DNA of 64,000 nt from Agromyces sp. H66 (lineage in GTDB: Bacteria; Actinomycetota; Actinomycetes; Actinomycetales; Microbacteriaceae), in assembly GCF_004959775.1 (NCBI RefSeq), contig NZ_SJZG01000011.1, positions 1 to 64,000 on the forward strand. Direction: 5' to 3'. Numbering within the stretch: the stretch's first letter is position 1; the number at the start of each line of letters is the position of its first letter. This document shows, piece by piece, positions 7,288 through 64,000 of this stretch. Under the pieces are notes generated by a model. The model ran no database searches. It saw nothing but the letters and a program-made list of their open reading frames with translations, and was not told the origin of the DNA. The translations under genes and the position numbers were made by a program.

Positions 7288-7548
7288 TCAGTCGTTGTCG
7301 TCTTGGTCGAACTCCACCGGGTCGGAGTCGTCGGCGTCGAACTTGAAGCGCACGCGCAGCTGGCCGTTCACCTCGCGCTGCTCCACGGCGTCGTACCAGA
7401 AGAGGGACTCGAGTCCGTCGACGGCGGCCATCATGCCGACACGGGTCTCTGGCTTGCCGCCGACGAGCGCCCGATGCTCGAAGTCGCCCTCGAGTGGGCC
7501 GTCGATGAACTCGGCGACGTAGTCGGTCTTTGCCGTGTCTGCGCTCAT
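7288..7548 (-). CDS. Small acidic protein, 86 aa, unknown function
   Basis: A soluble acidic protein with a folded-looking core (VAEFIDGPLEGDFEHRALVG, then LESLFWYDAVEQREVNGQLR) and an Asp-rich C-terminus. Length and composition suggest a conserved small actinobacterial protein, but I do not recognise the family. It lies just downstream of the thiamin-transport/kinase operon on the same strand, separated from the kinase stop by only 9 bases, and could be its last cistron. Confidence 0.65.
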   Translation of the reverse strand: MSADTAKTDYVAEFIDGPLEGDFEHRALVGGKPETRVGMMAAVDGLESLFWYDAVEQREVNGQLRVRFKFDADDSDPVEFDQDDND

Positions 7549-7557
7549 GTGTCTACG

Positions 7558-8100: not shown

Positions 8101-8131
8101 CGACGCCGTCGCGACCCGATCGGCCGCGACC

Positions 8132-10431: not shown

Positions 10432-10432
10432 G

Positions 10433-11059
10433 TCAGGCCGCCCGGAGCTCGCGTCCCGCGGCGAACCGATCGAGGGCTCCCGCGCGGGCGAGACCGCGCA
10501 CGGCCAACCAGGACAGCCCCCCGGCGATGAGGGCGCCGCCCACGATCGCCGAGATGACGTACACGATGGCGAAGGTCGGCGCTGCGCCCACGTACCAGAG
10601 GATCAGGTCGTTGATCGCCATGCCGAGCCCGGCGGCGGCACCGGCGAGCAGCGCGACCGGCAGGCGCCAGTTCCGGTACAGGAAGAGCGCGAAGAGGAGT
10701 TCGGCGCCCAGGCCCTGGACGAGCCCGGCCTCGATGGTGAGCAGGCCGCCCCACTGGCTGCCGATGAGCGCGGAGACGATCGCCGCGACGAGTTCGGTGT
10801 AGAGCGCGGCGCCCGGCTTGCGGATGATGAGCGCACCGAGCACGCCCGCCACGAGCCAGACGGCGGCCGGCGCGGCCTGGAGGCCGGGAAGGAGCGCCTC
10901 GATGGGTGCCGAGATCGGTCCCCAGACGACGCCCCAGGCCCAGAAGATCACGCCGACGGCGACGCCGACGACGCTCGCGACGACGATGTCGACGACCCGC
11001 CAGCGGAAGCGGCGCGAGCCGGTCGCGGTGGATTCGGATGAGGTGACGGTTGCGTGCAC
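10433..11059 (-). CDS. ykoE: ECF transporter substrate-binding (S) component, YkoE type
   Basis: 208 residues, about six hydrophobic helices (for example VVDIVVASVVGVAVGVIFW and LWYVGAAPTFAIVYVISAIV). The GTG at 11059 is preferred because AAAGGG lies 8 bases upstream and the preceding 45 bases are riboswitch leader; an ATG-started frame from 11185 would run through the riboswitch. YkoE proteins bind thiamin or its hydroxymethylpyrimidine precursor and feed the YkoD/YkoC energising module. Control by the adjacent TPP riboswitch supports that substrate class. Confidence 0.88.
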   Translation of the reverse strand: MHATVTSSESTATGSRRFRWRVVDIVVASVVGVAVGVIFWAWGVVWGPISAPIEALLPGLQAAPAAVWLVAGVLGALIIRKPGAALYTELVAAIVSALIGSQWGGLLTIEAGLVQGLGAELLFALFLYRNWRLPVALLAGAAAGLGMAINDLILWYVGAAPTFAIVYVISAIVGGALIAGGLSWLAVRGLARAGALDRFAAGRELRAA

Positions 11060-11103
11060 TGTTCGTGCCCTTTCTGTTCGTTGAAAGAGGCACGGGATTG
11101 AGA

Positions 11104-11200
11104 TGTGATGCCCTCCCTGCGCTGGCATGACCCAGATCAGGTTCGACGGTCGAAGGTTGAGAACCTTCCTCTCAGCCCGGCTCACCGGACTCCCGTGTTC
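11104..11200 (-). ncRNA. TPP riboswitch (THI element) controlling ykoEDC
   Basis: Read on the minus strand, the leader contains the conserved THI-box parts in order: a P1/P2 segment followed by GGGCTGAGAGGA (the CTGAGA pyrimidine-sensing loop), then after a variable helix the pyrophosphate-sensing part CCTGATCTGGGTCATGCC and a final GCGCAGGGAGGGC. It lies 45 bases upstream of ykoE. Binding of thiamin pyrophosphate would repress the importer. Whether it acts on transcription or translation is not evident; no T-run terminator is obvious between it and the start codon. Confidence 0.93.
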
Positions 11201-11207
11201 GCCACCG

Positions 11208-11213
11208 AGTATA
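11208..11213 (-). promoter_or_regulatory. Candidate -10 element (TATACT) of the ykoEDC transcript
   Basis: On the minus strand TATACT lies about 8 bases upstream of the first conserved base of the TPP riboswitch, the right distance for transcription to begin at the riboswitch 5' end. No convincing -35 was found at 16-18 bases upstream. Confidence 0.45.
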
Positions 11214-11241
11214 CGCCGCGACGTGGCGGCTCCGGCACGGG

Positions 11242-11574
11242 TCAGCGCTTGAGGGCGCGGATGACCACCTTCAGGGCCTTGCCGGTCACCCAGACGAGCG
11301 GAGTCACCACGAGGAGCAGCCCGATGAGGTTCGGTTCGAATCGAACGTCGCCGCCGCGACCGACATATGCGCCCAGCGGAATCGAAACGCCGCCGCCACC
11401 GCCGCCGCTGCCCTCGTCGCCCTTGTCGTCCTTGCCGCCGCCGGCCCCGAAGCCGTAGTAGCCGAGGGCCACGGGCACGATCTTGGTGCCGTCGATGTCG
11501 ACCGTCTCCCCGTACGAGGTCTTCACGCCGACGCCGGCGACGGTCTCTGCGAGTTCCAGTACGAGTTCAGCCAT
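11242..11574 (-). CDS. GerW/YtfJ-like family protein
   Basis: 110 residues. The sequence TSYGETVDIDGTKIVPVALG, followed by YYGFGAGG and a long Gly/Lys/Asp-rich loop, then VSIPLGAYVGRGGDVRFEP, is the layout of the spore-germination GerW (YtfJ) family, which is common in non-sporulating actinobacteria with unknown function. The C-terminus carries one hydrophobic helix (LIGLLLVVTPLVWVTG). ATG at 11574 is used; a GTG at 11583 would add three residues. Neither has a strong ribosome-binding site. Confidence 0.78.
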   Translation of the reverse strand: MAELVLELAETVAGVGVKTSYGETVDIDGTKIVPVALGYYGFGAGGGKDDKGDEGSGGGGGGVSIPLGAYVGRGGDVRFEPNLIGLLLVVTPLVWVTGKALKVVIRALKR

Positions 11575-11604
11575 GCGGGCCACGCTACTCGCCCGTGGTG
11601 CGGG

Positions 11605-12900
11605 CTACCACCCCCACCCGGCAGCGGCCGCCGCGGCGTCGTCGTCGTCGGGGTCGGTGCCGGGGCGCGGCCGTTCGCTCCGACGCTCCCCTCCGGGCCG
11701 CACGAGCGTGGCGGGACGCACGGCGCCGGTGCCGAACTTCGCGGTGACCTCGTCGATCGTGCGTTCGGCGTCGCGCCACTCCTCGTCGGGATCCCACAGC
11801 ATCGCGCCGCCGCCCGACGGCCGCAGGTGCTCGGCGCGGACGCCGATGAGACGCACGCGCTCGCCGTGGCCGACGAGCTCAGCCAGGGCGTCGGATGCCT
11901 CGTCGTAGATGCGGCGCGCGACATCCGTCGGCTCGGACAGCGTGCGCGACCGCGTGACGGTGCGGAAGTCGCCGTACCGGAGCTTCAGCGTCACCGTGCG
12001 ACCGAGGAGCCCGGCCTTGCGCAACCGCACCGCGACGTTGTTCGAGAGGCGGAGCAGCTCGCGCCGGATCTCGTCGGGGTCGGTGAGGTCATGGAGGAAC
12101 GTGTTCTCGTGGCCGATGCTCTTCTCGGCGCGGGTGGTGTGCACGTCACGCGGATCGATGCCGTTCGCGAGCCGCCCGAGCCGAGCCGCGAGCGCAGGGC
12201 CGACGGCGCGTTCGAGCGCGTCGTGGGGCATCGCGGCGACATCGCCGACGGTGCGGAGCCCGAGCCGGCGCAGCGACTCCTCGGTGACCCGGCCGACGCC
12301 CCACAGCGCCGAGACGGGAAGCGGGTGCAGGAACGCGACCGTGTCGGCGGCGGGCACCACGAGCATCCCGTCGGGCTTCGCCCGGCTCGAGGCGACCTTG
12401 GCGACGTACTTCGTGGCCGCGACCCCGATCGAGCAGGTGAGCCCCGTCTCGGCACGCACGCGCTCGCGGATCGTCCAGGCGATCTCTGCCGGGCTGCCGT
12501 GCAGTCGCCGGGCCCCCGACACGTCGAGGAACGCCTCGTCGATCGACAGCGGCTCGACGAGCGGCGTGATCTCGCCGAAGATCTCCATGACCCGCTTCGA
12601 GTACCTCGAATAGCTGGCGTAGTCGCCGCGCAGCACGACGGCGTTCGGGCAGCGCTGCAGCGCGATCGACATCGGCATGGCGGAATTCACGCCGAACCGG
12701 CGTGCCTCGTAACTTGCCGCGGACACCACGCCGCGACCGGCGGTGCCGCCGACGAGCACCGGCTTGCCGCGGAGGTCGGGACGGCTGAGCAACTCGACCG
12801 ACACGAAGAACGCGTCCATGTCGACGTGCAGGATCGGGGTCGCCGAGTCGTCGACCGGACCCGTCGTGACCTGACGCGACGAGCCGTCCTGCTTGCTCAT
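11605..12900 (-). CDS. dinB: DNA polymerase IV (Y-family)
   Basis: 431 residues. The palm motif ILHVDMDAFFVSVELLS carries the first catalytic Asp pair (27, 29), and SIDEAFLDVSG carries the second Asp-Glu pair. The thumb helix-hairpin-helix (VSALWGVGRVTEESLRRLG) and the little finger (NTFLHDLTDPDEIRREL, RTVTLKLRYGDFRTVTRS) follow. A short Arg/Asp/Ala-rich extension ends the protein instead of a clear beta-clamp peptide. It performs error-prone translesion synthesis. No SOS box was recognised in the short upstream region. Confidence 0.93.
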   Translation of the reverse strand: MSKQDGSSRQVTTGPVDDSATPILHVDMDAFFVSVELLSRPDLRGKPVLVGGTAGRGVVSAASYEARRFGVNSAMPMSIALQRCPNAVVLRGDYASYSRYSKRVMEIFGEITPLVEPLSIDEAFLDVSGARRLHGSPAEIAWTIRERVRAETGLTCSIGVAATKYVAKVASSRAKPDGMLVVPAADTVAFLHPLPVSALWGVGRVTEESLRRLGLRTVGDVAAMPHDALERAVGPALAARLGRLANGIDPRDVHTTRAEKSIGHENTFLHDLTDPDEIRRELLRLSNNVAVRLRKAGLLGRTVTLKLRYGDFRTVTRSRTLSEPTDVARRIYDEASDALAELVGHGERVRLIGVRAEHLRPSGGGAMLWDPDEEWRDAERTIDEVTAKFGTGAVRPATLVRPGGERRSERPRPGTDPDDDDAAAAAAGWGW

Positions 12901-12947
12901 GATGCGACCCTAGCCCGCACCGCCGTCATCGGCGGTTCCCGGCTCCG

Positions 12948-13556
12948 TCAGAAGCCGAAGTCGCCGCCGCCGAAGTCGCCGCCGCCCCAGTCACCACCGC
13001 CCCAGTCGCCACCGCCCCAGTCGCCACCCGCGTCACCCGACGCGTCGGCGCCGGAGGCATCTGCAGCGACGTCACCGCCATCGCCGCCCGCCTCGAACGC
13101 GGACGGGTCGGGAAGGAACGCCTGGGCGATCGCGGAGCCGATGACCACGCCGGCGATGGTGCCGAGCATCGAGCTGCCGATCATCTGCCCCATGGATGGC
13201 GCCGCACCGCGCGCGCCGGCGCCCGAGAACGCGCGCTCCATGGTGCCGGGCTCGCGCATCTCCGCTCGCGTGGCGGCGCGCGCCAGGGCTGCAGGTTCGT
13301 CGGAGACGAGGCGTTCACCGGGCGGGGCCTGCTCGGACAGCGTGCGGAAGACCTCGGCACGCTGCTGGGGCGTCAGCTTCGCGAACGCCTCGGCGTGCAC
13401 GGCCTCGATCGACTCGGGCGGCGCCGTGCGCAGCAGGTAGCGGTACCGCTCGACGGCCAGCTCATCTTCGCTCAGCGGCCGGGCTGGCGGGACCTGCCGT
13501 GAGGGCGGCGCCGTGCGCTCGTCCGATGCGCCGAACAGTCGGTCCAGGAAACCCAT
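12948..13556 (-). CDS. Protein with hydrophobic centre and Gly-Gly-Gly-Asp-Trp C-terminal repeats
   Basis: 202 residues. The N-terminal half is helical and charged (LSEDELAVERYRYLLRTAPP, VHAEAFAKLTPQQRAEVFR). The centre has a Gly/Ile-rich membrane-like segment (MIGSSMLGTIAGVVIGSAIA). The tail is a low-complexity repeat of GGGDW changing to GGGDF at the end, encoded by 15-bp units. Similar domain order occurs in uncharacterised actinobacterial proteins. Function is unknown; Trp/Phe-Gly repeats suggest an interaction or phase-separating tail. Confidence 0.65.
   Translation of the reverse strand: MGFLDRLFGASDERTAPPSRQVPPARPLSEDELAVERYRYLLRTAPPESIEAVHAEAFAKLTPQQRAEVFRTLSEQAPPGERLVSDEPAALARAATRAEMREPGTMERAFSGAGARGAAPSMGQMIGSSMLGTIAGVVIGSAIAQAFLPDPSAFEAGGDGGDVAADASGADASGDAGGDWGGGDWGGGDWGGGDFGGGDFGF
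12951..13026 (-). repeat. 15-bp tandem repeat encoding GGGDW/GGGDF units
   Basis: About five near-identical 15-bp units inside the end of the preceding gene. Each encodes Gly-Gly-Gly-Asp-Trp (or Phe). Repeats of this kind vary in number by slippage, so copy number may differ between strains. Confidence 0.75.
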
Positions 13557-17049: not shown

Positions 17050-18852
17050 CTAACGGGGTGCGCCGAAGAGGCCGATGCCGTGCGTGTGGAGCAGTTCGTA
17101 GGCGTCGGCGTACGTCGCCGGCTCCTCCGCGCCGGGCGCGCCGTACTTCGCCAGCAGGAGTCCGAGGAGCCCCCGTGCGGGCGGGCTCAGCGGCTTGTCC
17201 TTGTGCGCGTGGGCCGGGTGCGGCGCCTCGGCCTGCGGGTTCGGCGGGAGGTACTGGGGCATGGTCGACGGCCACGTGATCGGCGGGCGCGGCTCGTCGA
17301 GGTTGACGGCGCCGAACAGGTCGTTGGCTCCGACATCCCGCCGGGTGAGCGGTTCGAGCCCGTGCAGCCGAGAGAGCGTCGCGATGACGGCGGCGTGGTG
17401 CGTCTCATCGTGCACGATGGTGCCCGCCCGCGTGTAGGCCGACACCGCGATCGCGGGGACGCGGCATCCGAGTCGGTCGAAACCGAACCCCATCTCGCCC
17501 TCGGAGCCGTCGTGCGGCGGGGTGGCCGGCGGGGGCGGCACATGGTCGTACGTGCCCCCGTGCTCGTCGAACGTGATGAGGAGCATCGTGTTCATCGCGT
17601 TCGAGCCCTCGGGCGCGTCGCTGCGCTTGATGGCCTCGTAGATCTCGTGCACGAGCGCCTCCCCCGCCCGCACGTCGGAGACGGCGCTGTCGATGACCGG
17701 GCGACCGTCGACGACCTCCTCCCGGAGTGCGCCGAACGGCGGGTGGAAGTCGTTGTGGTTGTACGTCATGCGCGGCTCGATGAACGCGTACGCCGGCAGG
17801 GTGCCGAGGCGCGCGTCCTCGTAGAACTCGGTCATCGTGGCGAAGTGCTCGGTGCGCCAGTACGGCTCGAGCACCGGGGCGTGCAGCACGCCCGTGAACG
17901 ACACGAGCTGCAACTCGTCGAAGTAGATCCGCCACGAGATGCCGGCGTCTTCGAGGCGGTTGAAGATGGTCGGCGTCGCGGGCGCATCGAGCCACTTCTC
18001 GTAGCCGCCGCCGTGCTTGTTCGTGACGAAGCCGTGCGAGGTCGAGGCATGGAAGAACGACCGGTTGCAGAACGTCTGCGACGGCACGGCGCAGTACCAG
18101 TGGTCGTAGACGGCGAAGTTCTTCGCCAGGGTCGAGAGCACCGGCAGCATCTGCGGCGAGAACGAGCCCATGATCTGCCGGGCCTCGTCGGCGGTGGGCG
18201 GCACGCCCTTGCGCAGGCGCATGAAGTTGATCCAGTAGTCGCGCACGAAGCCCGACATCGACGCCTCCGCGCCCTTCGGGGGCGTGTTGTAGGGCGCCTC
18301 CATGTGCTCGACGAACAGCTCGGCGTTCGTGGCCGGGTCGACGGTGCCGAAGAGCTGGGTGTTGACGTGCGGGAACTCCTCGCCCGGATCGGGATTCGGG
18401 CGACCCATGATCTCGTCGGTCGGCCCGTCGTAGACGTGTGCGGCGACCTCGGTGCCGTCGGGCGACGTGTTGCGGTGGTCGCCGAACGCGAGGCCCTCGA
18501 ACGCCTCGCCGTCGGGCAGGTCGTCGGGCGTGTAGAGGAAGCCGAGGAGGTTGTCGAACGACCGGTTCTCGCCCATCAGCACGACGAGATGGTCGAAGCC
18601 GGCCTCCTGCCGGGGCGTGAGGGGCACGACGTCGCCGAGACCCTCGTCGAGTCCTGCCCGATGGCCGACGGCGGCACCGACCGCCGCGCCCACGCCACCA
18701 CCGACCACGGCGCCGGCGGCCGCGGCGCCGCCGATCCTCAGGAAGTCCCGGCGGCTCGTGCCGGGAGCGCGCCCCGGGTCGGCGTCGGACCCGGCGTCCG
18801 GGTCGGCACCGGTGCCGGCATCGTCTGCACCTCGGCCCGCGTCATCCGTCAT
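17050..18852 (-). CDS. Tat-exported phospholipase C / acid phosphatase-type phosphoesterase
   Basis: 600 residues. A twin-arginine signal is visible at about 33-60 (TSRRDFLRIGGAAAAGAVVG). The metal-binding motifs of the phosphoesterase family follow: LMGENRSFDNLLGFLY, then NFAVYDHWYCAVPSQTFCNR, and LLITFDEHGGTYDHVPPPP near residue 390. Family members are non-haemolytic phospholipases C or acid phosphatases acting outside the cell. The N-terminus before the twin-Arg is a disordered Asp/Gly/Ala stretch. Substrate cannot be told. It is a lone gene between gatCAB and ligA. Confidence 0.87.
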   Translation of the reverse strand: MTDDAGRGADDAGTGADPDAGSDADPGRAPGTSRRDFLRIGGAAAAGAVVGGGVGAAVGAAVGHRAGLDEGLGDVVPLTPRQEAGFDHLVVLMGENRSFDNLLGFLYTPDDLPDGEAFEGLAFGDHRNTSPDGTEVAAHVYDGPTDEIMGRPNPDPGEEFPHVNTQLFGTVDPATNAELFVEHMEAPYNTPPKGAEASMSGFVRDYWINFMRLRKGVPPTADEARQIMGSFSPQMLPVLSTLAKNFAVYDHWYCAVPSQTFCNRSFFHASTSHGFVTNKHGGGYEKWLDAPATPTIFNRLEDAGISWRIYFDELQLVSFTGVLHAPVLEPYWRTEHFATMTEFYEDARLGTLPAYAFIEPRMTYNHNDFHPPFGALREEVVDGRPVIDSAVSDVRAGEALVHEIYEAIKRSDAPEGSNAMNTMLLITFDEHGGTYDHVPPPPATPPHDGSEGEMGFGFDRLGCRVPAIAVSAYTRAGTIVHDETHHAAVIATLSRLHGLEPLTRRDVGANDLFGAVNLDEPRPPITWPSTMPQYLPPNPQAEAPHPAHAHKDKPLSPPARGLLGLLLAKYGAPGAEEPATYADAYELLHTHGIGLFGAPR

Positions 18853-18874
18853 CGCCTGATCTCCCCGCTCCCGG

Positions 18875-21259
<2,385 letters not shown>

Positions 21260-55255: not shown

Positions 55256-55770
55256 TCACCCCTTCGACCGCCGGATCCAGCCGTCGTCGCGACGCATCGC
55301 GACGCCGTGGAGCTCGAGCGGCCCGAGCACGCCCATGACCTCGCGCACCGACATGCCCGAGCGGCGCGCGATCTCGTCGATGCTGCGCGGACTCCGAGTG
55401 CTCAGTGCATCGGTGACTCGCAGTACGTCGGGTGAGGGCGCCGCGACATCCTGATCCAGATCCGCGGGACCCCCGCGGCGCCTCGCCCCGTTCGGACGCA
55501 CATCGCCACGGGCGCGCACCGGCTCTCCCCCGCCCGCGAGCTCCGCCATCTGCTCGGCGTCGACGACGCACACGGCGTCGTACTCCCGGAACAGTCGATG
55601 GCACCCCGCCGAGGCCGGGCTCGTCACGGGTCCGGGGACGGCGCCGAGTGGCCGGCCGAGCTCTGCGGCGTGCCCGGCGGTGTTGATCGAGCCCGAGCGC
55701 AGGCCCGCCTCGAGCACGACCGTGGCATCGGACGCCGCGGCAATGAGCCTGTTGCGTTGGCGAAACCTAC
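55256..55770 (-). pseudogene. dprA: dprA, C-terminal fragment; 5' part removed by insertion of a mobile element
   Basis: On the minus strand the sequence reads RFRQRNRLIAAASDATVVLE (the DprA Rossmann-fold part), then SGSINTAGHAAELGRPLGAV and a C-terminal winged helix (SPRSIDEIARRSGMSVREVM), with a stop at 55256. The frame is cut at about 55755-55770, where a serine recombinase gene starts. The N-terminal half of DprA is therefore beyond the window or lost. DprA loads RecA onto ssDNA in natural transformation; this fragment should not function alone. Its normal neighbour xerC lies downstream. Confidence 0.9.
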
Positions 55771-55779: not shown

Positions 55780-57222
55780 ATGACCGCTTTGACCTCCCCC
55801 TCCGCCCGCGTCGCGATCTATGCCCGCCAGTCCGAAGACGTCCGCGAAGGCATCGACCGCCAGATTGAGCGCTGCGAGGCCCTCGCCGCCGTCCGCGGCT
55901 ACGACGTCGTCGCCCGCTACCGCGACAACGACACATCGGCCTTCAAGCAGCGCGGCGAAGGCACGGAATGGGCCCGGATGCTCGCCGCCCTTCGCCGCGG
56001 CGAGGCCGAGATCGTGGTCGCCGTCGACCTCGACCGCCTCCTCCGCGACCCCCGCGACCTCGCGACGATCATCGACACCGGGGCCCGCCTCCTCACCGTC
56101 GACGGCGAGATCGACCTCACGACCGCCGACGGCGAATTCCGCGCCTCCATGCTCGCCTCGCTGGCCCGCTTCGAGGTCCGCCGCAAGTCCGAGCGCCAGC
56201 GCCGCGCCAACGAGGCCCGCGCCGCGAAGGGCCGCCCGACGCCCGGCCGCCGCCGCTACGGCTACGAGGTCGACGGCGTCACCCCTCGCGAAGCCGAGGC
56301 CGCCGTCGTCCGGCGCATGTTCCAGCACGTCGCCGAGGGCGGCTCGCTCCGCTCCCTCGCGCTCGCACTCACCGCCGAGGGCGTCGACCCCGCGCCCGGC
56401 CGCTCGTGGTCGACCGGCCGCGTCCGCTACATCCTGACGAACCCCGCCTACGGCGGATCCGTCCACCGCTTCGGCGAGGCCCTCCCCTCCGAGATCGTCG
56501 AGCCGATCGTCGCCCCGGCGCTCGCTGAGGAGGTCCGCGCAATCCTCGCCGACGAGAAGCGCCGCGTGACACCCGGCCCGACTCCCCGCTACCTCGCCTC
56601 GGGCCTCGTGAGTTGCGGCATCTGCGGCGGCCGAATCTTCAACCTCGCGAAGGCTTACCGCTGCAAGGCCGACAGCTCGCACCCGACGATCAAGCGCGAG
56701 CTCCTCGACGACCGCCTCCGCCGCGAGGTCGCCCTTGCCTTCCTGACGACGGCCCGCGACCTCCTCCCCGGCCAGCGATCCGCCGAGCTCGCCCCGCTCC
56801 TCGACGAGCTCCGCCGCAACGATGCCGCCGCCGCCGCAACGGCCGCCGACCGCGACGAGGGCCTCCTCTCGCCGACCGCCGCCCGAGAGCGCCTCGTCTC
56901 CCTCCGCGACGCCCGCCTCTCGATCGAGGCGAAGCTCGACGCCGCGCGCGTGGAGCGCTCGGCCTCCTCGGCGCTCGCCGACGTCGCCGCCGACCTCCTC
57001 GGCGACGCCGACAGCGTCCCTCTCGGCGACGTCTTCGGCCCCATGGCGGACGAGGTCGCCGCCCGCTTCGCCGACCTCGATATCGACCGCCAGCGCGACA
57101 CGGTCCGCGGCCTCCTGTCGGTCGAGCTTTACCCCGGCCGCGATCCTCGACGCGTCCGCGTCTGGCACCTGATCGCAACGCACCTGAACCCCGACGCCGT
57201 CGAAGACTACGACGCCGTCTAG
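55780..57222 (+). CDS. Large serine recombinase (integrase)
   Basis: 480 residues. The catalytic domain has YARQS with nucleophile Ser18 and Arg16, then IVVAVDLDRLLRDPRDLATI and EFRASMLASLARFEVRRKSE. A recombinase domain (residues about 165-265, RRYGYEVDGVTPREAEAAVV, RVRYILTNPAYGGSVHRFGE) is followed by a zinc ribbon (SCGICGGRIFN ... YRCKADSSHPT) and a coiled-coil stretch (residues about 335-400). It is the phiC31-type enzyme that would integrate the element. Ribosome-binding site absent; probably leaderless. Confidence 0.93.
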   Translation: MTALTSPSARVAIYARQSEDVREGIDRQIERCEALAAVRGYDVVARYRDNDTSAFKQRGEGTEWARMLAALRRGEAEIVVAVDLDRLLRDPRDLATIIDTGARLLTVDGEIDLTTADGEFRASMLASLARFEVRRKSERQRRANEARAAKGRPTPGRRRYGYEVDGVTPREAEAAVVRRMFQHVAEGGSLRSLALALTAEGVDPAPGRSWSTGRVRYILTNPAYGGSVHRFGEALPSEIVEPIVAPALAEEVRAILADEKRRVTPGPTPRYLASGLVSCGICGGRIFNLAKAYRCKADSSHPTIKRELLDDRLRREVALAFLTTARDLLPGQRSAELAPLLDELRRNDAAAAATAADRDEGLLSPTAARERLVSLRDARLSIEAKLDAARVERSASSALADVAADLLGDADSVPLGDVFGPMADEVAARFADLDIDRQRDTVRGLLSVELYPGRDPRRVRVWHLIATHLNPDAVEDYDAV

Positions 57223-57232
57223 ACCCCACCCC

Positions 57233-57275
57233 CGAAGGCCGCCGACCGCGTTTACACGCCCTCCGGCGGCCTTCG
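57233..57275 (+). terminator. Hairpin after the integrase gene
   Basis: CGAAGGCCGCC (57233-57243) pairs perfectly with GGCGGCCTTCG (57265-57275) over a 21-base loop, 10 bases after the integrase stop. There is no strong T-run, so termination is inferred from position and stability. Confidence 0.7.
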
Positions 57276-57425
57276 TCATGCCCGGCGCGACACGCCGATG
57301 CACAGGATTCCTGCGACTTTCGACCGCTGATTCGCCGTGCTCGTTGCGTCGCAGTACAGGCGGACGCAATTGAATTGTGTCTCCTGACGATCCCACGCCA
57401 AACGGCCATGAAACGTGCCGTACTG

Positions 57426-57483
57426 CTGGCCCTCTCCTCCTGTGGAGGGGTAGTCCGCGTAGTCCTGGCCCTCTCCTCCTGTG
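57426..57483. repeat. Two identical 19-base repeats containing CCTCTCCTCCTGTG
   Basis: CTGGCCCTCTCCTCCTGTG occurs at 57426-57444 and 57465-57483. Read on the minus strand each contains CACAGGAGGAGAG, a perfect Shine-Dalgarno sequence; read on the plus strand each resembles the 16S rRNA 3' end. No start codon follows either minus-strand copy at a proper distance. Confidence 0.7.
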
Positions 57484-57502
57484 AGCCCCCTAGGGCCCAT
57501 TC

Positions 57503-57527
57503 GCCCGCCCTCGCGGCGGGCCTTTTT
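57503..57527 (+). terminator. Rho-independent terminator
   Basis: GCCCGCC-CTCGC-GGCGGGC stem-loop followed by CTTTTT. It is a classic plus-strand terminator between integrase and coat protein and shows they are separate transcription units. Confidence 0.85.
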
Positions 57528-57938
57528 CTTCGCGGTCAACCTGTGACCGCCAAAGACTCGCGACCGTCGCCAATGACGCCGACGGCCCGCGAGGGCGCGC
57601 CGTTTGTAATGAGGTTCCCGGCGCGCGAACTGCATCGCCCGGCTGCTTTCTCTGAGGGCCTTTCGGGCCGACGCGATGCACCGGGCGAGCCGCCCTCCCG
57701 CGCCTGTTGGGGTGGCGACGGGGAAGGGGATCTCCTCGGCTCGCCCCCTCCAAGCTTCCGCCCGCGTGGCATCGCCACGACGAGCGGCTCCCGCCTTCCG
57801 AGAGCAGGCCTCTCCACGGCGACCCCCGGCGACCCCGCCACCCCCTAGAGCAACCCGTCGATCAGGCATCGGCGACGACCTCTCCGCTAGACGCGGCTCC
57901 TCCCATCCACCCCAGCTACCCACAAGGAGCAAGCCACC

Positions 57939-58814
57939 ATGGCGAACGCATTTGAGAACCCCGATACCGTCGCACGAGTCGCCGCCAAGCTCGTCGGCCT
58001 CGACCTGAACCTCGGTCAGTACCTCTACAAGGACCTCGCCCACGATTTCAGCGAGGGCAGCGGCCGGATCGTCTCGATCCGTGTCCCCGGCTCGGCGGCT
58101 GTGAGCAAGCGCGACGTCGGCGACACGACGACCCCGCTCGCTCAGGGCTCGATCAACGAGCAACTGATCCCGGTCGAGCTGAAGGACCACGTCTACAGCT
58201 CGGTCCCCCTCTCCGAGGAGGACCTCACGCTGAACATCGAGAACTACACGTCTCGCGTCCTCGTGCCTCAGGCCAGCTCGATCGCCCGCGACATCGAGGC
58301 GACCGTCGCCGCCGGGATGCAGGCGACGCCCGAGTCGACCGCGATCACCTATGACGCGCTCACTCCGGCGAAGACCTTCACGAAGATCCGCGCGAAGCTC
58401 CGCGAGAACGGCGTCCCAACCGGGGCCCGCATGATCGCCGCCGTCGGCTCCGGCGTCTACGGCGACCTCCTCGACGCCGAGGCGATCGACGGCAACGGCA
58501 AGGTCCGCGGCTTCGAGATCGTAGAGTCGACCCGCCTCGCCGCCGACGAGGTTATCGGCTTCATCCCGAACGCCTTCGCGCTCGTGGTGCGCGCCCCGCT
58601 CGCCCCCGAGGGCGCGCCCTACTCGGCGTCGGTGACTCACGGCGGCTTCGCGCTCCGCGTGATCCGCGCCTACGACCCGACGGTCGCGGTCGAGCGCTCG
58701 CTCGTGAGCTCGTTCGTCGCCGTGAAGCCGCTCCCGCTCCCCGTCGACAACGAGGACGGCACCGTCTCGCTCGTCGCGAACGGCGGCGCGGTCCGCGTAC
58801 TCACCGCGGCGTAA
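57939..58814 (+). CDS. P22-coat-like phage major capsid protein
   Basis: 291 residues. GRIVSIRVPGSAAVSKRDVG, then INEQLIPVELKDHVYSSVPL, SEEDLTLNIENYTSRVLVPQ, and in the C-terminal half ARMIAAVGSGVYGDLLDAEA and FEIVESTRLAADEVIGFIPN are the pattern of HK97-fold coat proteins of the P22 type used by actinophages. ATG at 57939 has AAGGAG 9 bases upstream. It stands alone: no scaffold, protease or portal gene neighbours it, and a terminator closes the unit behind it. An encapsulin-like role is an alternative. Confidence 0.87.
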   Translation: MANAFENPDTVARVAAKLVGLDLNLGQYLYKDLAHDFSEGSGRIVSIRVPGSAAVSKRDVGDTTTPLAQGSINEQLIPVELKDHVYSSVPLSEEDLTLNIENYTSRVLVPQASSIARDIEATVAAGMQATPESTAITYDALTPAKTFTKIRAKLRENGVPTGARMIAAVGSGVYGDLLDAEAIDGNGKVRGFEIVESTRLAADEVIGFIPNAFALVVRAPLAPEGAPYSASVTHGGFALRVIRAYDPTVAVERSLVSSFVAVKPLPLPVDNEDGTVSLVANGGAVRVLTAA

Positions 58815-58824
58815 TCACCCCTTC

Positions 58825-58876
58825 GCGGGGCCGCCTCTCTCCTTCTTCGGAGCTGAGGGGCGGCCCCGCTTTCTCT
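58825..58876 (+). terminator. Rho-independent terminator after the coat-protein gene
   Basis: GCGGGGCCGCC (58825-58835) and GGCGGCCCCGC (58859-58869) form an 11-bp perfect stem followed by TTTCTCTC, starting 11 bases after the capsid stop. Confidence 0.88.
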
Positions 58877-58903
58877 CGCACTCAATCCGTGACTGGAGGC
58901 CTC

Positions 58904-59116
58904 ATGCTTCACTCGATCCGCTGCATCCGTTGCGGCGTCCGCTTCGACTCGCCGCGCTCCCACGCTCAGACATGCTCGGACGCCTGCCGTAAGGCCCTCA
59001 GCCGAACCCGCCGCCGCTCGGCGCTGATCCTCGACGCCGCGGCATTCTTCGCGACGGCCGACGGCCCAGATCTCGACCGCGCCAGCGCCCTCCTCGGCGA
59101 CGACGAGGCCGTGTAA
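58904..59116 (+). CDS. Small two-Cys-pair zinc-finger-like protein, 70 aa
   Basis: CIRCGVRFDSPRSHAQTCSD carries Cys-x2-Cys and Cys-x3-Cys (with the next CR) separated by about 14 residues, then a basic RTRRRSALI and an acidic tail. GGAGG precedes the ATG 58904 well. Similar mini-proteins are common in actinophage genomes. Role unknown, perhaps DNA binding. Confidence 0.72.
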   Translation: MLHSIRCIRCGVRFDSPRSHAQTCSDACRKALSRTRRRSALILDAAAFFATADGPDLDRASALLGDDEAV

Positions 59117-59138
59117 ACGGCCCTCGCTCCCTGAGGGG

Positions 59139-59175
59139 GTGAACAGTTCGCGTGTGCGTGGTGGTGAATCACCAC
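59139..59175 (+). repeat. 37-nt repeat, copy 1
   Basis: Begins GTGAACAGTTCGCGTGTGCG and ends GAATCACCAC. It shares 32 of 37 positions with copy 2. It contains an internal TGGTGGTGAATCACCA-type partial palindrome. Confidence 0.85.
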
Positions 59176-59298
59176 TTCGTATCTCCCCCTCTCTGGGTCG
59201 AAAAGGTGGCAGTTCTGCGGACCTCGCCGGTCCACCACGCCGAAGAGGGCGGGCGACGCCCCCGGGCCACGCCGAGCGAAGCCCTGAGCCCTCCCAAG

Positions 59299-59335
59299 GT
59301 GAAAAGTTCGCGTGTGCGTGGTGCTGAATCGTCAC
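59299..59335 (+). repeat. 37-nt repeat, copy 2 (left arm of a 122-nt palindrome)
   Basis: Begins GTGAAAAGTTCGCGTGTGCG and ends GAATCGTCAC. Together with the inverted copy 3 (59384-59420) it frames a near-palindrome 59299-59420 with centre near 59360; the sequence between them (CTCTACTAGC ... GCTCTAGTG) continues the pairing imperfectly. Confidence 0.85.
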
Positions 59336-59383
59336 TCTCTATTCCCTCTACTAGCGCGCTCGCTCTAGTGCAGGAGAAGGGAA

Positions 59384-59420
59384 GTGACGATTCACCACCA
59401 CGCCCACGCCAACTCTTCAC
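59384..59420 (-). repeat. 37-nt repeat, copy 3, inverted
   Basis: On the minus strand begins GTGAAGAGTTGGCGTGGGCG and ends GAATCGTCAC. Four positions differ from copy 2. Copies 2 and 3 are separated by 48 bases, copies 1 and 2 by 123. Confidence 0.85.
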
Positions 59421-59508
59421 CCCACCCGAAAGCGCCCGCCCCGGCGCTGCAATGCGGCCCCCGGCCGCCTCCCCGCCCAATCACCCACCCCGAGCCTTGG
59501 AACCTCAC

Positions 59509-60498
59509 ATGAACCTCACCCCAGAACAGGCCGCCGCGATCACCCAGCAAAGCGTTGCCGCCCTTCCCTCCGGCGAGTGGGCCGCCCACGCGGTCAGCCT
59601 CGCCCGCGTCATCGCCGACGAGCTCGCCACCCGCGGCCTCCGCATCGTCGAGCACGAGACCTACTCGACCGTCCTCGACGTCTCCGGCGACGAGCCCCGC
59701 CGGATCCCCCTCGACGAGCTCCGGCCCCTCGTCGGCGACCTCGCCCTCGCCGCTCTCGACGCCGCCGCCGACCTCGTCGACGACGCCCGCGCCCGCGCAC
59801 GCGCGACGGCCACCGCCCGAGCGATCCGCGACCACGCCGACGGCGGATACCTCCGGCGACTGACGGCCCACGCCCGCGACCTCCTCCCGGAGGCAACCGA
59901 CGACGACCTCGACGCCCTCGCCGAGGCCGCACGCGCCCGTCGCGCCGCCAAGCGCACCGCCCTCGGCCGCACGACCGCGAACGCCTACGCCGCCGCCTCT
60001 CGCTCCCGCGACCGCGACGACGCCCGCGCCGTCCTCTCGAAGTGGCTCCCGACGCTGACCTCCGGCCGCCACCTTCTCGGCGACGTCTGGGACTCATGGC
60101 GAGCCGCCGTCTCCCACTCCGGGCGCGTCCGCGAGGCCTTCCCCGGCGCTCTCCGCGTCGGCCGGACGACCTTCTATGAGCTCCTCGACGAGCTCGGCGA
60201 GATCGTCTCCGGCGGAGCCCGACGCCGCTACCTCGTCATCCCCGAACCCACCCGCGCAACCCCCGAGGAGCCCACCATGACCCAGCCCACGCCCGACGCC
60301 GCCACCCCGGCGACCCGCGACCGTATCGCCGCGCTCTACCTCGACGCGATCCGCGAGCGCCTCGCCGCCGGAGACAAGCTCGGAGCGTTGCTCCTCCAGC
60401 GCGACCGGCGCGAGCTGGAGGCCTCCGACGAGCCCCTCGACCTCGACGCCGCCCACGCCGCCATTGCGGCCCGTACCCACGAAAGGACCTCACGATGA
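59509..60498 (+). CDS. Island protein with C-terminal winged-helix-like segment, 329 aa
   Basis: The N-terminal part is helical (TPEQAAAITQQSVAALPSGE), the middle strongly Arg/Ala-rich (RARARATATARAIRDHADGG), and the C-terminal third holds a helix-turn-helix-like block (LGDVWDSWRAAVSHSGRVRE, LRVGRTTFYELLDELGEIVS). Such an end resembles winged-helix domains of phage primase/helicase or replication regulator proteins, but no catalytic motif is seen. No good ribosome-binding site; ATG 59509. Its stop overlaps the next gene by ATGA. Function unknown, possibly replication-related given the repeats just upstream. Confidence 0.7.
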   Translation: MNLTPEQAAAITQQSVAALPSGEWAAHAVSLARVIADELATRGLRIVEHETYSTVLDVSGDEPRRIPLDELRPLVGDLALAALDAAADLVDDARARARATATARAIRDHADGGYLRRLTAHARDLLPEATDDDLDALAEAARARRAAKRTALGRTTANAYAAASRSRDRDDARAVLSKWLPTLTSGRHLLGDVWDSWRAAVSHSGRVREAFPGALRVGRTTFYELLDELGEIVSGGARRRYLVIPEPTRATPEEPTMTQPTPDAATPATRDRIAALYLDAIRERLAAGDKLGALLLQRDRRELEASDEPLDLDAAHAAIAARTHERTSR

Positions 60499-60692
60499 CC
60501 CCTCAGACCTCCCCCCAGTCGCTCGTCGACCTCGTCGACCGCTTCGGCCTCGCCGCGCTGGAGGCCCTCGCCGCGAGCCGTGGCCCGAGGTTTGCCGCCC
60601 GCCTCGGCCTCGGCCGGATCGAGGCTCGGCTCGACTCGTATCTGGCCGCGCATCCATCGGCGTTCCCCGCCCCCGCCGAGGCCCGCTCGTGA
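60495..60692 (+). CDS. Small helical protein, 65 aa
   Basis: Two amphipathic helices (SLVDLVDRFGLAALEALAAS, IEARLDSYLAAHPSAF). ATGA overlap with the gene before and GTGA overlap with the gene after make it part of a tightly coupled chain. AAAGGACC precedes it. Not recognised. Confidence 0.65.
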   Translation: MTPQTSPQSLVDLVDRFGLAALEALAASRGPRFAARLGLGRIEARLDSYLAAHPSAFPAPAEARS

Positions 60693-61405
60693 AGCGCTGC
60701 ACCCGATGCGGCGAGACGAAAGCCCTCGACGACTTCCCCCGCGACAAGCGCCGCCGCGACGACCGTGCCTCGTCCTGCCGCGAATGCGACCGCGAGCGTA
60801 AGGCCCGCTACCGCGCTGAGAACGCCGACAAGGTCCGCGAGCAGCAGGCCCGCTACCGCGCCGAGAACGCCGACAAGATCCGCGAGCGCTCGCGCGAGTA
60901 CTCCCGCCGCCGCGTCGCCTCCGGCCGTGACGCCGAGGATACCCGCCGCAAGCACGCCCGCCGAGCCGCCCGCTCCGACGCCGAGATCGCCGCCGACCGC
61001 GCCCGCCTCCGCCCGGACGGCCTGAAGCGCTGCCGCACCTGCCGCGAGCCGCTGCCCCTCGCAGCGTTCGGCGACGACCGGAGCAGGCCCGACGCCCTCC
61101 GTGCCTCATGCCGCGACTGCGCCGCCGCCCGTGCCGCCCGCCGCTACCTCGGCGTCTACCTCGACGACTGGGAGCGCCGCGACCTCTGGACGTGCGCTTA
61201 CTGCGGCGGCCCCTTCTCCGACGTCGAGCACGTCGAGCCCGTCTCCCTCGGCGGCCTCGACGTCCCGGAGAACACCGTCCCCGCTTGCTGGAGCTGCAAC
61301 CGCGGCCCCGGCGGCAAGCACGACCGCCCCCTCTTCGACTGGCGACCGGACCTCTACGACCTCGTGAAGGACTGGCCCCGCCGCTTCGTCGAGCTCCCCG
61401 CCTGA
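60689..61405 (+). CDS. HNH endonuclease with N-terminal zinc fingers
   Basis: 238 residues. Two Cys-pair fingers: CTRCGETKALDDFPRDKRRR ... CREC, and CRTCREPLPLAAFGDDRS ... CRDC, with a Lys/Arg/Asn repeat (ARYRAENADKVREQQ twice) between. The C-terminal HNH motif is CAYCGGPFSDVEHVEPVSLG ... ENTVPACWSCN. GTG at 60689 overlaps the previous stop. Such HNH enzymes nick DNA, often near cos or as a packaging partner; they may also be homing enzymes. Confidence 0.85.
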   Translation: MKRCTRCGETKALDDFPRDKRRRDDRASSCRECDRERKARYRAENADKVREQQARYRAENADKIRERSREYSRRRVASGRDAEDTRRKHARRAARSDAEIAADRARLRPDGLKRCRTCREPLPLAAFGDDRSRPDALRASCRDCAAARAARRYLGVYLDDWERRDLWTCAYCGGPFSDVEHVEPVSLGGLDVPENTVPACWSCNRGPGGKHDRPLFDWRPDLYDLVKDWPRRFVELPA

Positions 61406-61430
61406 ACCCCGACCGAAAGGAAGAACCTCC

Positions 61431-61673
61431 ATGCATTACCTCAGCCCCCGCCTTCAGGAAGCCATGTACGCCGCGATCGAGGCCGCCCGCCTGCCGAAGA
61501 CCCTCGACGAGCTCTCTCCGGCGTCTCGCGCCCACGTCGAGCGCTACGCCGCCGAGCGCGGCCTCGACCCGCAGGAGGCCCTGACTCAGGCCCGAGCGGC
61601 TCAGAGGGCCGCAATCGCCGAGGCGCGAGCCTACGAGAAGCTCGCCCTCGACGCCCGGAAGGCGGCCCGCTGA
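61431..61673 (+). CDS. Small helical protein, 80 aa
   Basis: RLQEAMYAAIEAARLPKTLD then DELSPASRAHVERYAAERGL and an Ala-rich helix. GAAAGGAAG site before ATG 61431. The stop overlaps the next ATG (TGATG). Unknown. Confidence 0.68.
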   Translation: MHYLSPRLQEAMYAAIEAARLPKTLDELSPASRAHVERYAAERGLDPQEALTQARAAQRAAIAEARAYEKLALDARKAAR

Positions 61674-61840
61674 TGGGCGCGTCCGTCCGCGCCTTGGGAG
61701 CAGGCGACCGCGGCCTGAAGCGCTCGCAGCTCCAGCGCCCGCGGCTCGCCGCCCCGTCCCCGTCGGCCCCGACCCGTCCCATGTCCTCCCGCGAGGCCCG
61801 TCGCGCCGCTGAGCGCGCCGCCGCCCGAGCATCCCGTTAG
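61673..61840 (+). CDS. Basic mini-protein, 55 aa
   Basis: Starts at ATG 61673 overlapping the previous stop by one base. Arg/Ala/Pro-rich (RGLKRSQLQRPRLAAP and SSREARRAAERAAARASR). It could be a nucleic-acid-binding or spurious frame; the coupling and spacing argue for a real one. TAG at 61838-61840. Confidence 0.5.
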   Translation: MGASVRALGAGDRGLKRSQLQRPRLAAPSPSAPTRPMSSREARRAAERAAARASR

Positions 61841-61850
61841 GAGCCCCGTC

Positions 61851-62240
61851 ATGCCCGCTCTCCCTCCCCCCGTCTCCGCGCTGGAGTCTCGCCTCGGCGT
61901 CCCCGTGGGATCTCTCGCCGCCGAGGACCTCGTCCGAGCCGAGTCCGCCCTCGCCGACGCGACGACCCTCGCCCTCGCTGAGGTCCCGGCCTCCGTCGCG
62001 GCCTCGTGGGAGCTCGACGCCCCACCGATCGCCGCGTCCGTCGTCCTGAAGGCCGCCCGCCGCGAGTACGAGAACCCCCGCGGCATCGCACAGGAGACGC
62101 TCGGCGAACACTCCGTCGGCCTCTCCGAGTCCTCCGGCGTCTATCTGACCCGCCGCGAGATCCGCTACCTCCGCCGCGCCGCGACGGGCCGCTCGCGCGG
62201 CTTCGTCGGCACGGTCCGCACGCCCTCCGCCCACTCCTGA
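61851..62240 (+). CDS. Phage head-tail connector-like (gp6 type) protein
   Basis: 129 residues. SALADATTLALAEVPASVAA, then SVVLKAARREYENPRGIAQE, TLGEHSVGLSESSGVYLTRR and EIRYLRRAA is the helix-loop pattern of the gp6-like DNA-packaging/connector proteins of siphophages and actinophages. TAGGAG precedes the ATG 61851. If right, the element encodes at least two virion parts. No direct catalytic evidence is possible. Confidence 0.68.
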   Translation: MPALPPPVSALESRLGVPVGSLAAEDLVRAESALADATTLALAEVPASVAASWELDAPPIAASVVLKAARREYENPRGIAQETLGEHSVGLSESSGVYLTRREIRYLRRAATGRSRGFVGTVRTPSAHS

Positions 62241-62254: not shown

Positions 62255-62626
62255 ATGACCACCACCCCGACCGCCCCGCTCTCCGTCGCCGCCCGCCGCC
62301 AGCTCGATATCTTCCAGCGCTTCGTCGAGGGCGTCGACGTGCGACGCGCCCCGGCGAACCTCCGCCGCCCTCACAGCATGGGCGAATGGGCCCGCCTCTC
62401 GGCGGCCGAGCGCCTCGCGCACGCCGAGCAGCGCTCCCGCGAGCTCACGGCCCCGAAGACCGCGAAGCTCGCCCCCTCGAAGCCTGCCGCCCCGAAGCCC
62501 GAGGCCGTCCGCGCCTTCCGCCCCGGCGAGCGCCTCGCCCTCTCGGACGTCTCTGGCGAGTGGCTCCCGATCGCCGAGATCCGCCGCGAGGAGGCCGCCG
62601 CCCGCGCCGCCCGTCGCGCGGCGTAG
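62255..62626 (+). CDS. Island protein, 123 aa, unknown
   Basis: A helical start (ARRQLDIFQRFVEGVDVRRA), a Lys/Pro/Ala linker (TAKLAPSKPAAPKPEAV), then RLALSDVSGEWLPIAEIRRE and a basic tail. AAAGGACC before ATG 62255. Not recognised; follows the connector by 14 bases. Confidence 0.68.
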   Translation: MTTTPTAPLSVAARRQLDIFQRFVEGVDVRRAPANLRRPHSMGEWARLSAAERLAHAEQRSRELTAPKTAKLAPSKPAAPKPEAVRAFRPGERLALSDVSGEWLPIAEIRREEAAARAARRAA

Positions 62627-62670: not shown

Positions 62671-62976
62671 ATGCCGACGCTCCCCGCCCCCCTCGACGAG
62701 CTCGCCGAGGAGACGCTCCTCCTCGCCCATGTCCTCGGCGCTGCCGAAGACGTCCAATGGACCCGCGGGCCCACGCCCCGGCCCCGCGACGACGAGGGAC
62801 GACGCTCGCCCGGCGGCGTCCCGGACCCGACCGGGGACACTGTGGCCGACCCTCGCCGCCTCGCCGTCCGCGCGGCCTACATCCAAGGCCGCCGGGCCCT
62901 CGCGGCGTCCATCGCGACGGTACAGCGCACGAGCGCGAAGCTCGACGAGCTCGACCTCGGCGCTCCGTCGGCGTGA
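62671..62976 (+). CDS. Actinophage-type small protein, 101 aa
   Basis: The segment VQWTRGPTPRPRDDEGRRS, then VPDPTGDTVADPRRLAVRAA, is a motif I associate with small proteins recurrent in mycobacteriophages and related phages. Its function is not known to me. GAAAGGACG precedes ATG 62671. It ends the tight gene chain. Confidence 0.7.
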   Translation: MPTLPAPLDELAEETLLLAHVLGAAEDVQWTRGPTPRPRDDEGRRSPGGVPDPTGDTVADPRRLAVRAAYIQGRRALAASIATVQRTSAKLDELDLGAPSA

Positions 62977-63003: not shown

Positions 63004-63043
63004 GGAGGGGGTGGGGGATGTCTCCCCTCCCCCCTACGGCTTC
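63004..63043 (+). terminator. G/C-rich hairpin after the island gene chain
   Basis: A purine block (GGAGGGGGTGGGGGA) is followed by its complement-like pyrimidine block (TCTCCCCTCCCCCC) with a short loop. There is no T-run, so it is only a possible terminator. Confidence 0.5.
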
Positions 63044-63074
63044 CACATCGGTGTGGCATAGCGCCTCATTGTCC

Positions 63075-63102
63075 GTACGTATAGCTCCGGATTTTTACGT
63101 AC
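63075..63102. promoter_or_regulatory. Inverted repeat GTACGTA / TACGTAC
   Basis: Perfect 7-bp arms at 63075-63081 and 63096-63102, 14 bases apart, in an AT-richer patch (ATTTTTACGT). It lies 38 bases upstream of the next small gene. Possible operator. Confidence 0.6.
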
Positions 63103-63439: not shown

Positions 63440-64000
63440 GTGGCGGACAACAAGCTCTTTTACGGTGACAACCTCGAAGTACTCGCGAAGCTACCGACGG
63501 ACTCCGTCGACCTCGTGTATCTGGATCCGCCCTTCAACTCCGCCCGCAATTACAACGTCATTTTCGCCCGAGGAACCGACGCCCACCACGACGTCGGCGC
63601 ACAGATCGAAGCGTTCACCGACACTTGGACATGGACGCAGGCGACCGAGGAGGAATTCGCCGCGTACGTCAGTGGCGGTCTACCGGTTACCGTCGGCGAT
63701 GCCCTCACGGCATTTAGAACGCTACTCGGCGAGAACGACGCGCTGGCGTACCTCGTCAACATGGCTCCACGCCTAGTTCAGCTTCGCCGCGTTCTGAAGC
63801 CAACTGGCTCGCTCTGGCTTCATTGCGACCCCGTAATGTCGCACTACTTGAAGGTGCTACTGGACGCGATATTCGACCCTCGCAGCTTCCGGAACGAGGT
63901 CATTTGGAAACGCACGTCGTCCAAGAGTCACTCAACCACTCGACTTGCGAGTAACCACGACGTCATTCTCGTGTACGCAGCTAGCGAGAAAGCGGTTTGG
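63440..64000 (+). CDS. DNA N6-adenine/N4-cytosine methyltransferase (type III Mod-like), 3' end beyond the window
   Basis: 187 residues up to the edge. FYGDNLEVLAKLPTDSVDLV then YLDPPFNSARNYNVIF gives motif IV DPPF at residues 29-32, near the N-terminus, the beta-class order found in type III Mod subunits and many solitary methyltransferases. LKPTGSLWLHCDPVMSHYLK and FRNEVIWKRTSS follow. GTG 63440 has no ribosome-binding site and lies 8 bases after TATAGG (63426-63431), suggesting a leaderless mRNA. Base composition is less GC-rich than the rest of the element. Confidence 0.85.
   Translation, partial: MADNKLFYGDNLEVLAKLPTDSVDLVYLDPPFNSARNYNVIFARGTDAHHDVGAQIEAFTDTWTWTQATEEEFAAYVSGGLPVTVGDALTAFRTLLGENDALAYLVNMAPRLVQLRRVLKPTGSLWLHCDPVMSHYLKVLLDAIFDPRSFRNEVIWKRTSSKSHSTTRLASNHDVILVYAASEKAVW

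Follow-up and report, generated by a model that had tools for sequence, protein, structure and literature searches.

A phage coat gene without a packaging motor in Agromyces: a probable cos-packaged satellite and its actinobacterial relatives

Why should a bacterial chromosome carry the gene for a phage coat and not the terminase, portal and protease genes in whose company such a gene is usually found? The question is raised by the first 64,000 bases of contig NZ_SJZG01000011.1 of Agromyces sp. H66 (the window; the host genome measures 4.23 Mb), in which a mobile element of 9.56 kb, extending from base 55,755 to contig base 65,316 and thus ending just outside the window, bears genes for a major capsid protein (coat) and a head-tail adaptor. 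The evidence set out below points, with good confidence, to a cos-packaged (cohesive-end) integrated satellite of an actinophage resembling JuneStar, Liebe and GardenState, a satellite that would supply its own coat and borrow terminase, portal and tail.

Boundaries, coat and packaging site of the element

The features on which the argument turns are the following.

55,256–55,760, minus strand: C-terminal part of dprA (Pfam DNA_processg_A and DprA_WH)
55,755–55,759, no strand: attL, CGTTG, found also as attR at contig 65,312–65,316 (read directly from the sequence)
55,780–57,222, plus strand: large serine integrase, 480 aa (PF00239, 1.7e-24; PF07508, 1.3e-12; phrog_95 integrase, 4.8e-74)
57,939–58,814, plus strand: major capsid protein (coat), 291 aa (phrog_283, 1e-30; PDB 8zdh chain A, 2.5e-27; coat tree)
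61,851–62,240, plus strand: head-tail adaptor (connector), 129 aa (phrog_137, head-tail adaptor Ad1, 1e-13)
63,010–63,094, plus strand: cos-like packaging site, predicted cut 63,059/63,060 (phage-site motif score 33.6)

The element interrupts the host gene dprA, the N-terminal part of which picks up near contig base 65,317 on the same strand, again with a match to DNA_processg_A; each of the two junctions carries CGTTG. Of 60 genus genomes, the own one included, 54 have the joined flanks without a break, two (the window genome and G345) have them interrupted, and four (G1133, G1138, G1142 and G1157) lack a full-length match. Since both att junctions can be read and the empty site is intact in those 54 genomes, the Agromyces element is complete and bounded.

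The product of the coat gene, which is intact, matches the PHROG family "major head protein" and a solved capsid protein at the values listed above. With the coat as tblastn query 310 phage records were found, every one of them below 60% identity, the annotation among the matches listed being major capsid or major head protein; identity to phage coats is 38–42%. The protein is shorter than the coats of six phages (about 308–324 aa as deduced from coordinates), a difference that may be related to a smaller shell. An AlphaFold model built from ten sequences reached a mean pLDDT (predicted local distance difference test) of only 44 and therefore the homology to PDB 8zdh was used in place of a fold search.

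The initial annotation, made on the window alone, fared unevenly when confronted with these data. Its designation of the coat as "P22-like" stands only in a wide sense, the match to Pfam P22_CoatProtein (2.1e-4) lying under the cut-off of that family. The coat is, as it had stated, the first called gene downstream of the serine integrase; the claim that the gene is closed by its own terminators had to be abandoned, two terminator-like sites being present in 57,200–59,520 vis-à-vis 1.2 expected from shuffles, one of them upstream of the coat and the other ~0.5 kb past it. Its gp6-like connector is indeed a head-tail adaptor of the Ad1 family, intact and sharing 64.8% identity with the protein annotated as adaptor in Arthrobacter phage JuneStar and 52–67% with the adaptors of six phages. 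Likewise, the absence of the usual terminase-portal-protease-capsid order was borne out: hidden Markov model (HMM) profiles of the structural genes, made from two annotated phages and nine prophages, gave no match for large terminase, portal, protease, scaffold or tail in contig bases 54,900–74,899, a stretch that holds the whole element. The right side, now completed to the end of the element at contig base 65,316, contains no full structural module beyond the window.

A further question is whether a DNA molecule of this kind could be recognized by a packaging enzyme. When the ends of JuneStar and Mysterium were joined, a sequence appeared that is common to several of the elements described below, and a position matrix was made from seven phage sites only, six taken from the ends of phage records and one from prophage L036; phage Footloose, which has a different end sequence and a coat outside the helper-type clade, was left out. 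In a leave-one-out analysis each phage site scores 18.9 to 73.8 with the matrix of the other six. The site of the window scores 33.6, a value that none of 300 simulated elements approaches (maximum 6.7), the best score in window bases 1–55,700 being 3.8. As to the background, the best of 38 flank pieces reaches 11.3, with one hit seen in two overlapping pieces of one flank, and among 18 other prophage loci one (L085, whose site had been seen before motif building and was kept out of the motif) scores 30.1, the remaining 17 not exceeding 3.5. All six phage records end with an HNH gene, and five of them begin with a small terminase as gene 1, gene 1 of Tweety19 being annotated as hypothetical. 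The right half of the window site is by eye most like that of GardenState, the whole 110-bp site aligns best with that of Liebe, and the word TACGTAT is present in the right half of the site in the window, L011, L051 and L124. Thus, a bounded integrated element below phage size with integrase and attachment sites, the lack of a full virion gene set (large terminase, portal, protease and tail) and a packaging signal of helper type, three attributes of a phage satellite, are found together in this locus.

A family of coat-bearing elements

Relatives of the coat were sought at 1e-10 in 398 genomes of the family, 396 of the order, 394 of the class and 60 of the genus (the sets overlap) and matches were obtained in 16 (own genome included), 12, 15 and 6 of them, respectively. 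In genome_contigs the single coat query yielded no relatives and an alignment query seven; in viral_contigs the corresponding numbers were three and two. The loci compared are those read at about 20 kb or to contig ends, and gene boundaries in the sister loci derive from a simple codon-usage caller, not from annotation. Eighteen loci have a coat gene without large terminase or portal: L009 (the window), L011, L030–L035, L048, L049, L051, L052, L054, L081–L084 and L091. They contrast with 25 loci of prophage type, identified by terminase or portal HMMs (L036–L044, L085–L087, L089, L090, L092, L093, L095, L096 and L100) or through terminase and portal of a second type, which was confirmed on L088 (L088, L094, L097, L099 and L101), the 25th being L126. 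Left out of these counts are G1076 and both G898 hits, which have a coat match and were not read at 20 kb, as well as L012, L013 and L098, which are truncated at contig ends or ambiguous; L123 was counted once with L052 (same cos), and L047, L050 and L053 coincide with L030, L032 and L033. One more coat-plus-integrase element, L124 of the same genus, lies beyond the 18.

The elements reside in Curtobacterium, Actinotalea, Mycetocola, Microbacterium and Agromyces, in further hosts of the family of the window and in a second family of the order (f10), L091 belonging to another family of the class (f35). A serine integrase is present in 17 of the 18, the exception (L054) being an incomplete 6.8-kb contig. 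Some members supply other parts besides the coat: an adaptor is encoded by eight (L009, L011, L035, L052, L054, L081, L082 and L084), a scaffold by three (L049, L082 and L084), a stopper by L054 and, as detailed below, a small terminase by six. L125 (G1127, 5,829–13,233), from the same genus, is of an intermediate kind, having serine integrase, scaffold, coat, adaptor, protease and portal, no large terminase within 20 kb and a cos-like site that scores 18.5.

The relationships among the coats were analyzed in a tree of 50 sequences, 17 of which are from elements, the frameshifted gene of L049 having been excluded. Sixteen of the 17 intact element coats form one clade (ultrafast bootstrap 99, SH-aLRT [Shimodaira–Hasegawa-like approximate likelihood ratio test] 97), whose sister clade (99/96; joint node 100/99) consists of JuneStar, Mysterium, Tweety19, Liebe, Caron, GardenState and prophage L036. 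These phages infect Arthrobacter, Curtobacterium and Microbacterium; the coat of Archie, the sole Mycobacterium phage coat in the tree, is far from those of the elements. The ratio of nonsynonymous to synonymous substitution rates (dN/dS) of the coat is 0.14–0.41 in seven pairs. The window adaptor is nearer to its phage counterparts than is the coat, at the identities given above, which fits an adaptor having to meet helper parts.

The packaging site follows a similar distribution, the motif scoring 26.0–55.4 in 13 of the 18 elements and 35.9 in L124, which was not used in building anything. A small-terminase family of two types is encoded by L033, L048, L052, L054, L081 and L082. The protein of L052 has matches to phrog_1496 (8.5e-7) and, short of the family cut-off, to PF05119 (2.2e-4). 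An hhalign comparison of the two types gives a probability of 84, and each of them matches a protein encoded immediately ahead of the large terminase in prophage L126 (3e-13 and 4e-13). In all six elements a cos-like site lies just upstream of the small-terminase gene; the sites of L054 and L081 are at background score, and L082 displays the exact cos core in this position. The right half of cos fits the phage motif less in these six elements than in 11 others with a site (Mann-Whitney p = 0.008, the test taking in L082, with its site placed by core, and the weak sites); L011 and L084 are intermediate (7.0). By eye, right-half words are common to elements having the same small-terminase type.

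Packaging route, cargo and rival explanations

The idea of a satellite with its own capsid gene that depends on a helper for other parts, advanced by the initial annotation as a plausible reading, is thus supported: the element is complete with no structural module beyond the window, its coat belongs to one clade beside specific phages, the cos of those same phages is found in most elements including that of the window, and in six sisters small-terminase genes stand beside cos. The following course of events can be envisaged. Upon infection by a helper phage the serine integrase would excise the element, which would then replicate; the element coat would assemble on the scaffold and portal of the helper into a shell for a small genome; the helper terminase, joined in some sisters by the small terminase of the satellite, would cut at the satellite cos and fill the shell; finally, the satellite adaptor would link the filled head to the neck and tail of the helper. 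The resulting virion would have coat, and sometimes scaffold and adaptor, of satellite origin, with portal, large terminase, protease and tail provided by the helper. That hybrid virions of this sort are made within an actinobacterial "shell-swap" family, and that, in lineages which acquired a small terminase, the corresponding half of cos was altered and packaging thereby became satellite-specific and not helper-specific, is a wider proposal, which the evidence favors to a moderate degree.

Of this account, the sequence itself provides the boundaries, the empty site, the intact coat and adaptor genes, the cos, the coat clade and the lack of large terminase and portal; induction, replication, a hybrid particle, a small shell and transfer are inferred. 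Several observations weigh against it. Neither small terminase nor scaffold is detectable by HMM in the window element. The cos motif is at background level in L054 (9.1), L081 (4.8) and L091 (3.2) and misses L083 (−1.6; site not detected) and L082 (−6.0; only the core present); the 12-mer GGCATAGCGCCT, found once in the whole 4.23-Mb genome and inside the element, occurs with one mismatch allowed in 23 of 100 window shuffles and is therefore not rare alone. A diverged right half is seen also where there is no small-terminase gene (window −3.2, L051 −0.6, L032 −4.9). The L091 coat falls outside the element clade on a long branch, and the L049 coat gene is frameshifted. The adaptor dN/dS is 0.42 and 0.30 in two pairs and 0.86 in a third with few changes, and the contrast between adaptor and coat is only partly special to the elements, since between prophage L036 and JuneStar, too, the adaptor is better kept than the coat (67% vs 55%). 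Finally, JuneStar large terminase and portal were found at 1e-10 in none of 12 element-bearing genomes, those of L048, L049 and L051 being outside the search; the control genome G093 does hold a large terminase and portal of JuneStar type. The helper is therefore likely an infecting phage, or else of a type that was not sought. The own genome (G000) has, on contig C12 at 354,548–355,057, a weak large-terminase-like match (phrog_2, 2.8e-5).

The remaining features of the element are these.

57,223–57,938, no strand: 716-bp gap between integrase and coat, no called genes, with a 26-nt direct repeat (gene calls, repeat scan)
58,889–59,116, plus strand: small zinc-finger-like protein (DUF2116 "probable treble clef", 0.0013, below cut-off; clusters c31/c6)
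59,117–59,511, no strand: two 39-nt direct repeats and two pairs of 61–62-nt imperfect inverted repeats, preceding the 329-aa gene (repeat scan)
59,509–60,498, plus strand: 329-aa protein with no convincing family in Pfam or PHROG searches
60,495–60,692, plus strand: small open reading frame (ORF), 65 aa (gene calls)
60,689–61,405, plus strand: HNH/endonuclease VII-like nuclease, 238 aa (PF01844, 1.4e-7; phrog_1035, 8.7e-32)
61,431–61,673, plus strand: small protein, 80 aa, family c17/c52/c67 (HMM clusters)
62,255–62,626, plus strand: small protein, c32, common to L031 and L052 (HMM clusters)
62,671–62,976, plus strand: DUF7169 protein, 101 aa (PF23773, 1.9e-26)
63,440–64,000, continuing to contig 65,068, plus strand: methyltransferase with an endonuclease-like C-terminal domain, 542 aa (PF01555, 2.7e-44)

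The gene order is accordingly serine integrase, coat, zinc-finger-like protein, 329-aa protein, small ORF, HNH/endonuclease VII, 80-aa protein and adaptor, followed by two small proteins (one of them DUF7169), the cos-like site, the methyltransferase-endonuclease and a small right-end gene. Much of this arrangement recurs. An integrase-coat gap of about 0.6–1 kb is present in several sister elements; relatives of the zinc-finger-like protein (c31/c6 HMMs) are found near the coat in 17 of 18 elements at E < 0.05, the match being weak in L032 (0.019) and lacking in L091; and the c17/c52/c67 protein is common to seven sisters (L030, L031, L033, L034, L035, L049 and L052). The repeats at 59,117–59,511 are a candidate origin or operator. 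Places comparable to that of the 329-aa gene are occupied by an ATPase-like protein of 519 aa in L011 and by the c8 family in six sisters, and HMM comparison detected no link between the 329-aa protein and c8; a role in replication, which could be guessed for this protein, finds no support in Pfam, PHROG or the element HMM clusters. The possibility that the element HNH nuclease corresponds to the cos-side HNH of the phages was tested and found weak, only a short local similarity (best 0.002) being present. L049 (10,001–10,894; 11,242–12,472), with its frameshifted coat, retains scaffold, cos and an HNH of phage type that directly precedes cos, as in phages.

The insertion sites also show some recurrence. 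The dprA gene, which functions in natural transformation, is the target of L033 and L034 as well, and L032 has the same dprA C-terminal cluster; L034 has two serine recombinase genes ~9 kb apart (7,331–8,836 and 17,672–18,883), the second lying past the N-terminal part of dprA. The target of L048, L081 and L083 is a type II/IV secretion ATPase gene of the TadA/CpaF kind (Pfam T2SSE, 7.8e-33 to 2.5e-36), and L051 shares this cluster with a fragment that has no Pfam match. Both target genes are tied to DNA uptake or pili.

The methyltransferase-endonuclease, which matches also Mrr_cat (PF04471, 7.2e-6), PF22722 "inactive Restriction Endonuclease 1" (4.9e-12) and the PADLOC methyltransferase models, is likely to be restriction or defence cargo. 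Restriction or defence-type genes, differing from one another, occupy the variable part of the window (from 63,440 on), L030, L032, L033, L034 and L051, which suggests that this part of the elements is a cargo slot. Could defence, then, be the principal business of these elements? A lone coat, possibly with the adaptor, could be a decoy that enters helper capsids during assembly and poisons them, in which case the locus would be chiefly an anti-phage island with restriction cargo and its transfer would be secondary; a coat unaccompanied by portal, large terminase and protease is compatible with this explanation, as are the genes just mentioned. Interference, however, leaves unexplained why cos and integrase are retained, why sisters have cos/small-terminase pairs and why L049, L082 and L084 have scaffold genes, so that as a sole explanation it appears improbable, although interference and satellite roles may exist side by side.

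Still less probable is that the element is a decayed remnant of an ordinary prophage. The frameshift in the L049 coat and an adaptor-like ORF reduced to 88 aa in L083 are what decay would leave behind; independent decays, however, would scatter across the prophage tree, whereas the element coats constitute a single clade, the 16 intact members of which occupy different sites in hosts of at least two families, and purifying selection, recurring small genes and an intact att core all speak for upkeep. One origin and long maintenance of the coats therefore disfavor repeated prophage decay. An encapsulin-like compartment housing a cargo enzyme, the other option of the initial annotation and one suggested by a coat gene lacking a packaging motor, deserves hardly any credit: encapsulins are shell genes with a conserved cargo gene alongside, and here no such gene is found, the genes recurring beside the coat being small and of phage type, the closest relatives found being phage major capsid proteins, and the element having integrase, cos packaging site and head-tail adaptor.

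Comparison with known satellites

The helper-dependent satellite with its own coat, which remains the preferred interpretation, has its closest known kinds in the mycobacterial candidate phage-inducible chromosomal islands (PICIs) characterized by integrase plus capsid and in the capsid-forming PICIs (cf-PICIs). In the account given in PMC10654092 the Mycobacterium candidates, including phiRv1 and phiRv2, are defined by an integrase and a major capsid gene, a combination found also here in one phage-like region that is not a full prophage; some of them have serine integrases, helicase, terminase or scaffold genes, and their mobilisation is not shown in the part of that paper dealing with them. 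The elements described here reside in other host genera, and the section devoted to the mycobacterial ones (PMC10654092) makes no mention of cos or of a covariation between small terminase and cos; the two groups are also set apart in that here both the clade of the coats and the cos lead to one set of named phages.

The cf-PICIs make their own capsid and take tails from the helper (passages in PMC10690885 and PMC11389934), encoding coat, protease, portal, connectors and both terminase subunits (PMC10690885). The logic is alike, inasmuch as the Agromyces element has its own coat gene (57,939–58,814); membership fails because large terminase and portal, like the protease, are not its own, large terminase and portal being absent from the whole set of elements. 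MulchRoom and MiniFlayer, satellites of Streptomyces phages, are likewise actinobacterial and, as presented in PMC10690885, have their own coat, scaffold and adaptor; they differ in encoding large terminase and portal and in having terminal repeats, and the same source credits MulchRoom with a tyrosine integrase and reports MiniFlayer as apparently non-integrating. P4 and the cos-type Staphylococcus aureus pathogenicity islands (SaPIs) resemble the present elements in carrying a cos for the helper terminase, other SaPIs having a small terminase of their own; in P4 and SaPIs, by the description in PMC10690885, no coat is encoded and scaffolding proteins redirect that of the helper.

No report of elements of this kind in Microbacteriaceae was found among the matches listed in the open-licence literature, which is not proof of their absence from print. 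Surveys requiring both a coat and a large terminase would lose them; one of Curtobacterium prophages (PMC9862828) took further only regions having both (64 of 70). The common cos names likely helper types, and the system is therefore testable with sequenced phages. If the interpretation is correct, the elements bear on the exchange of coat, portal and adaptor between viruses and would stand midway between two kinds of satellite, one remodelling a stolen coat and the other building the whole capsid and its motor, since in their case only the shell, with small parts, would be replaced.

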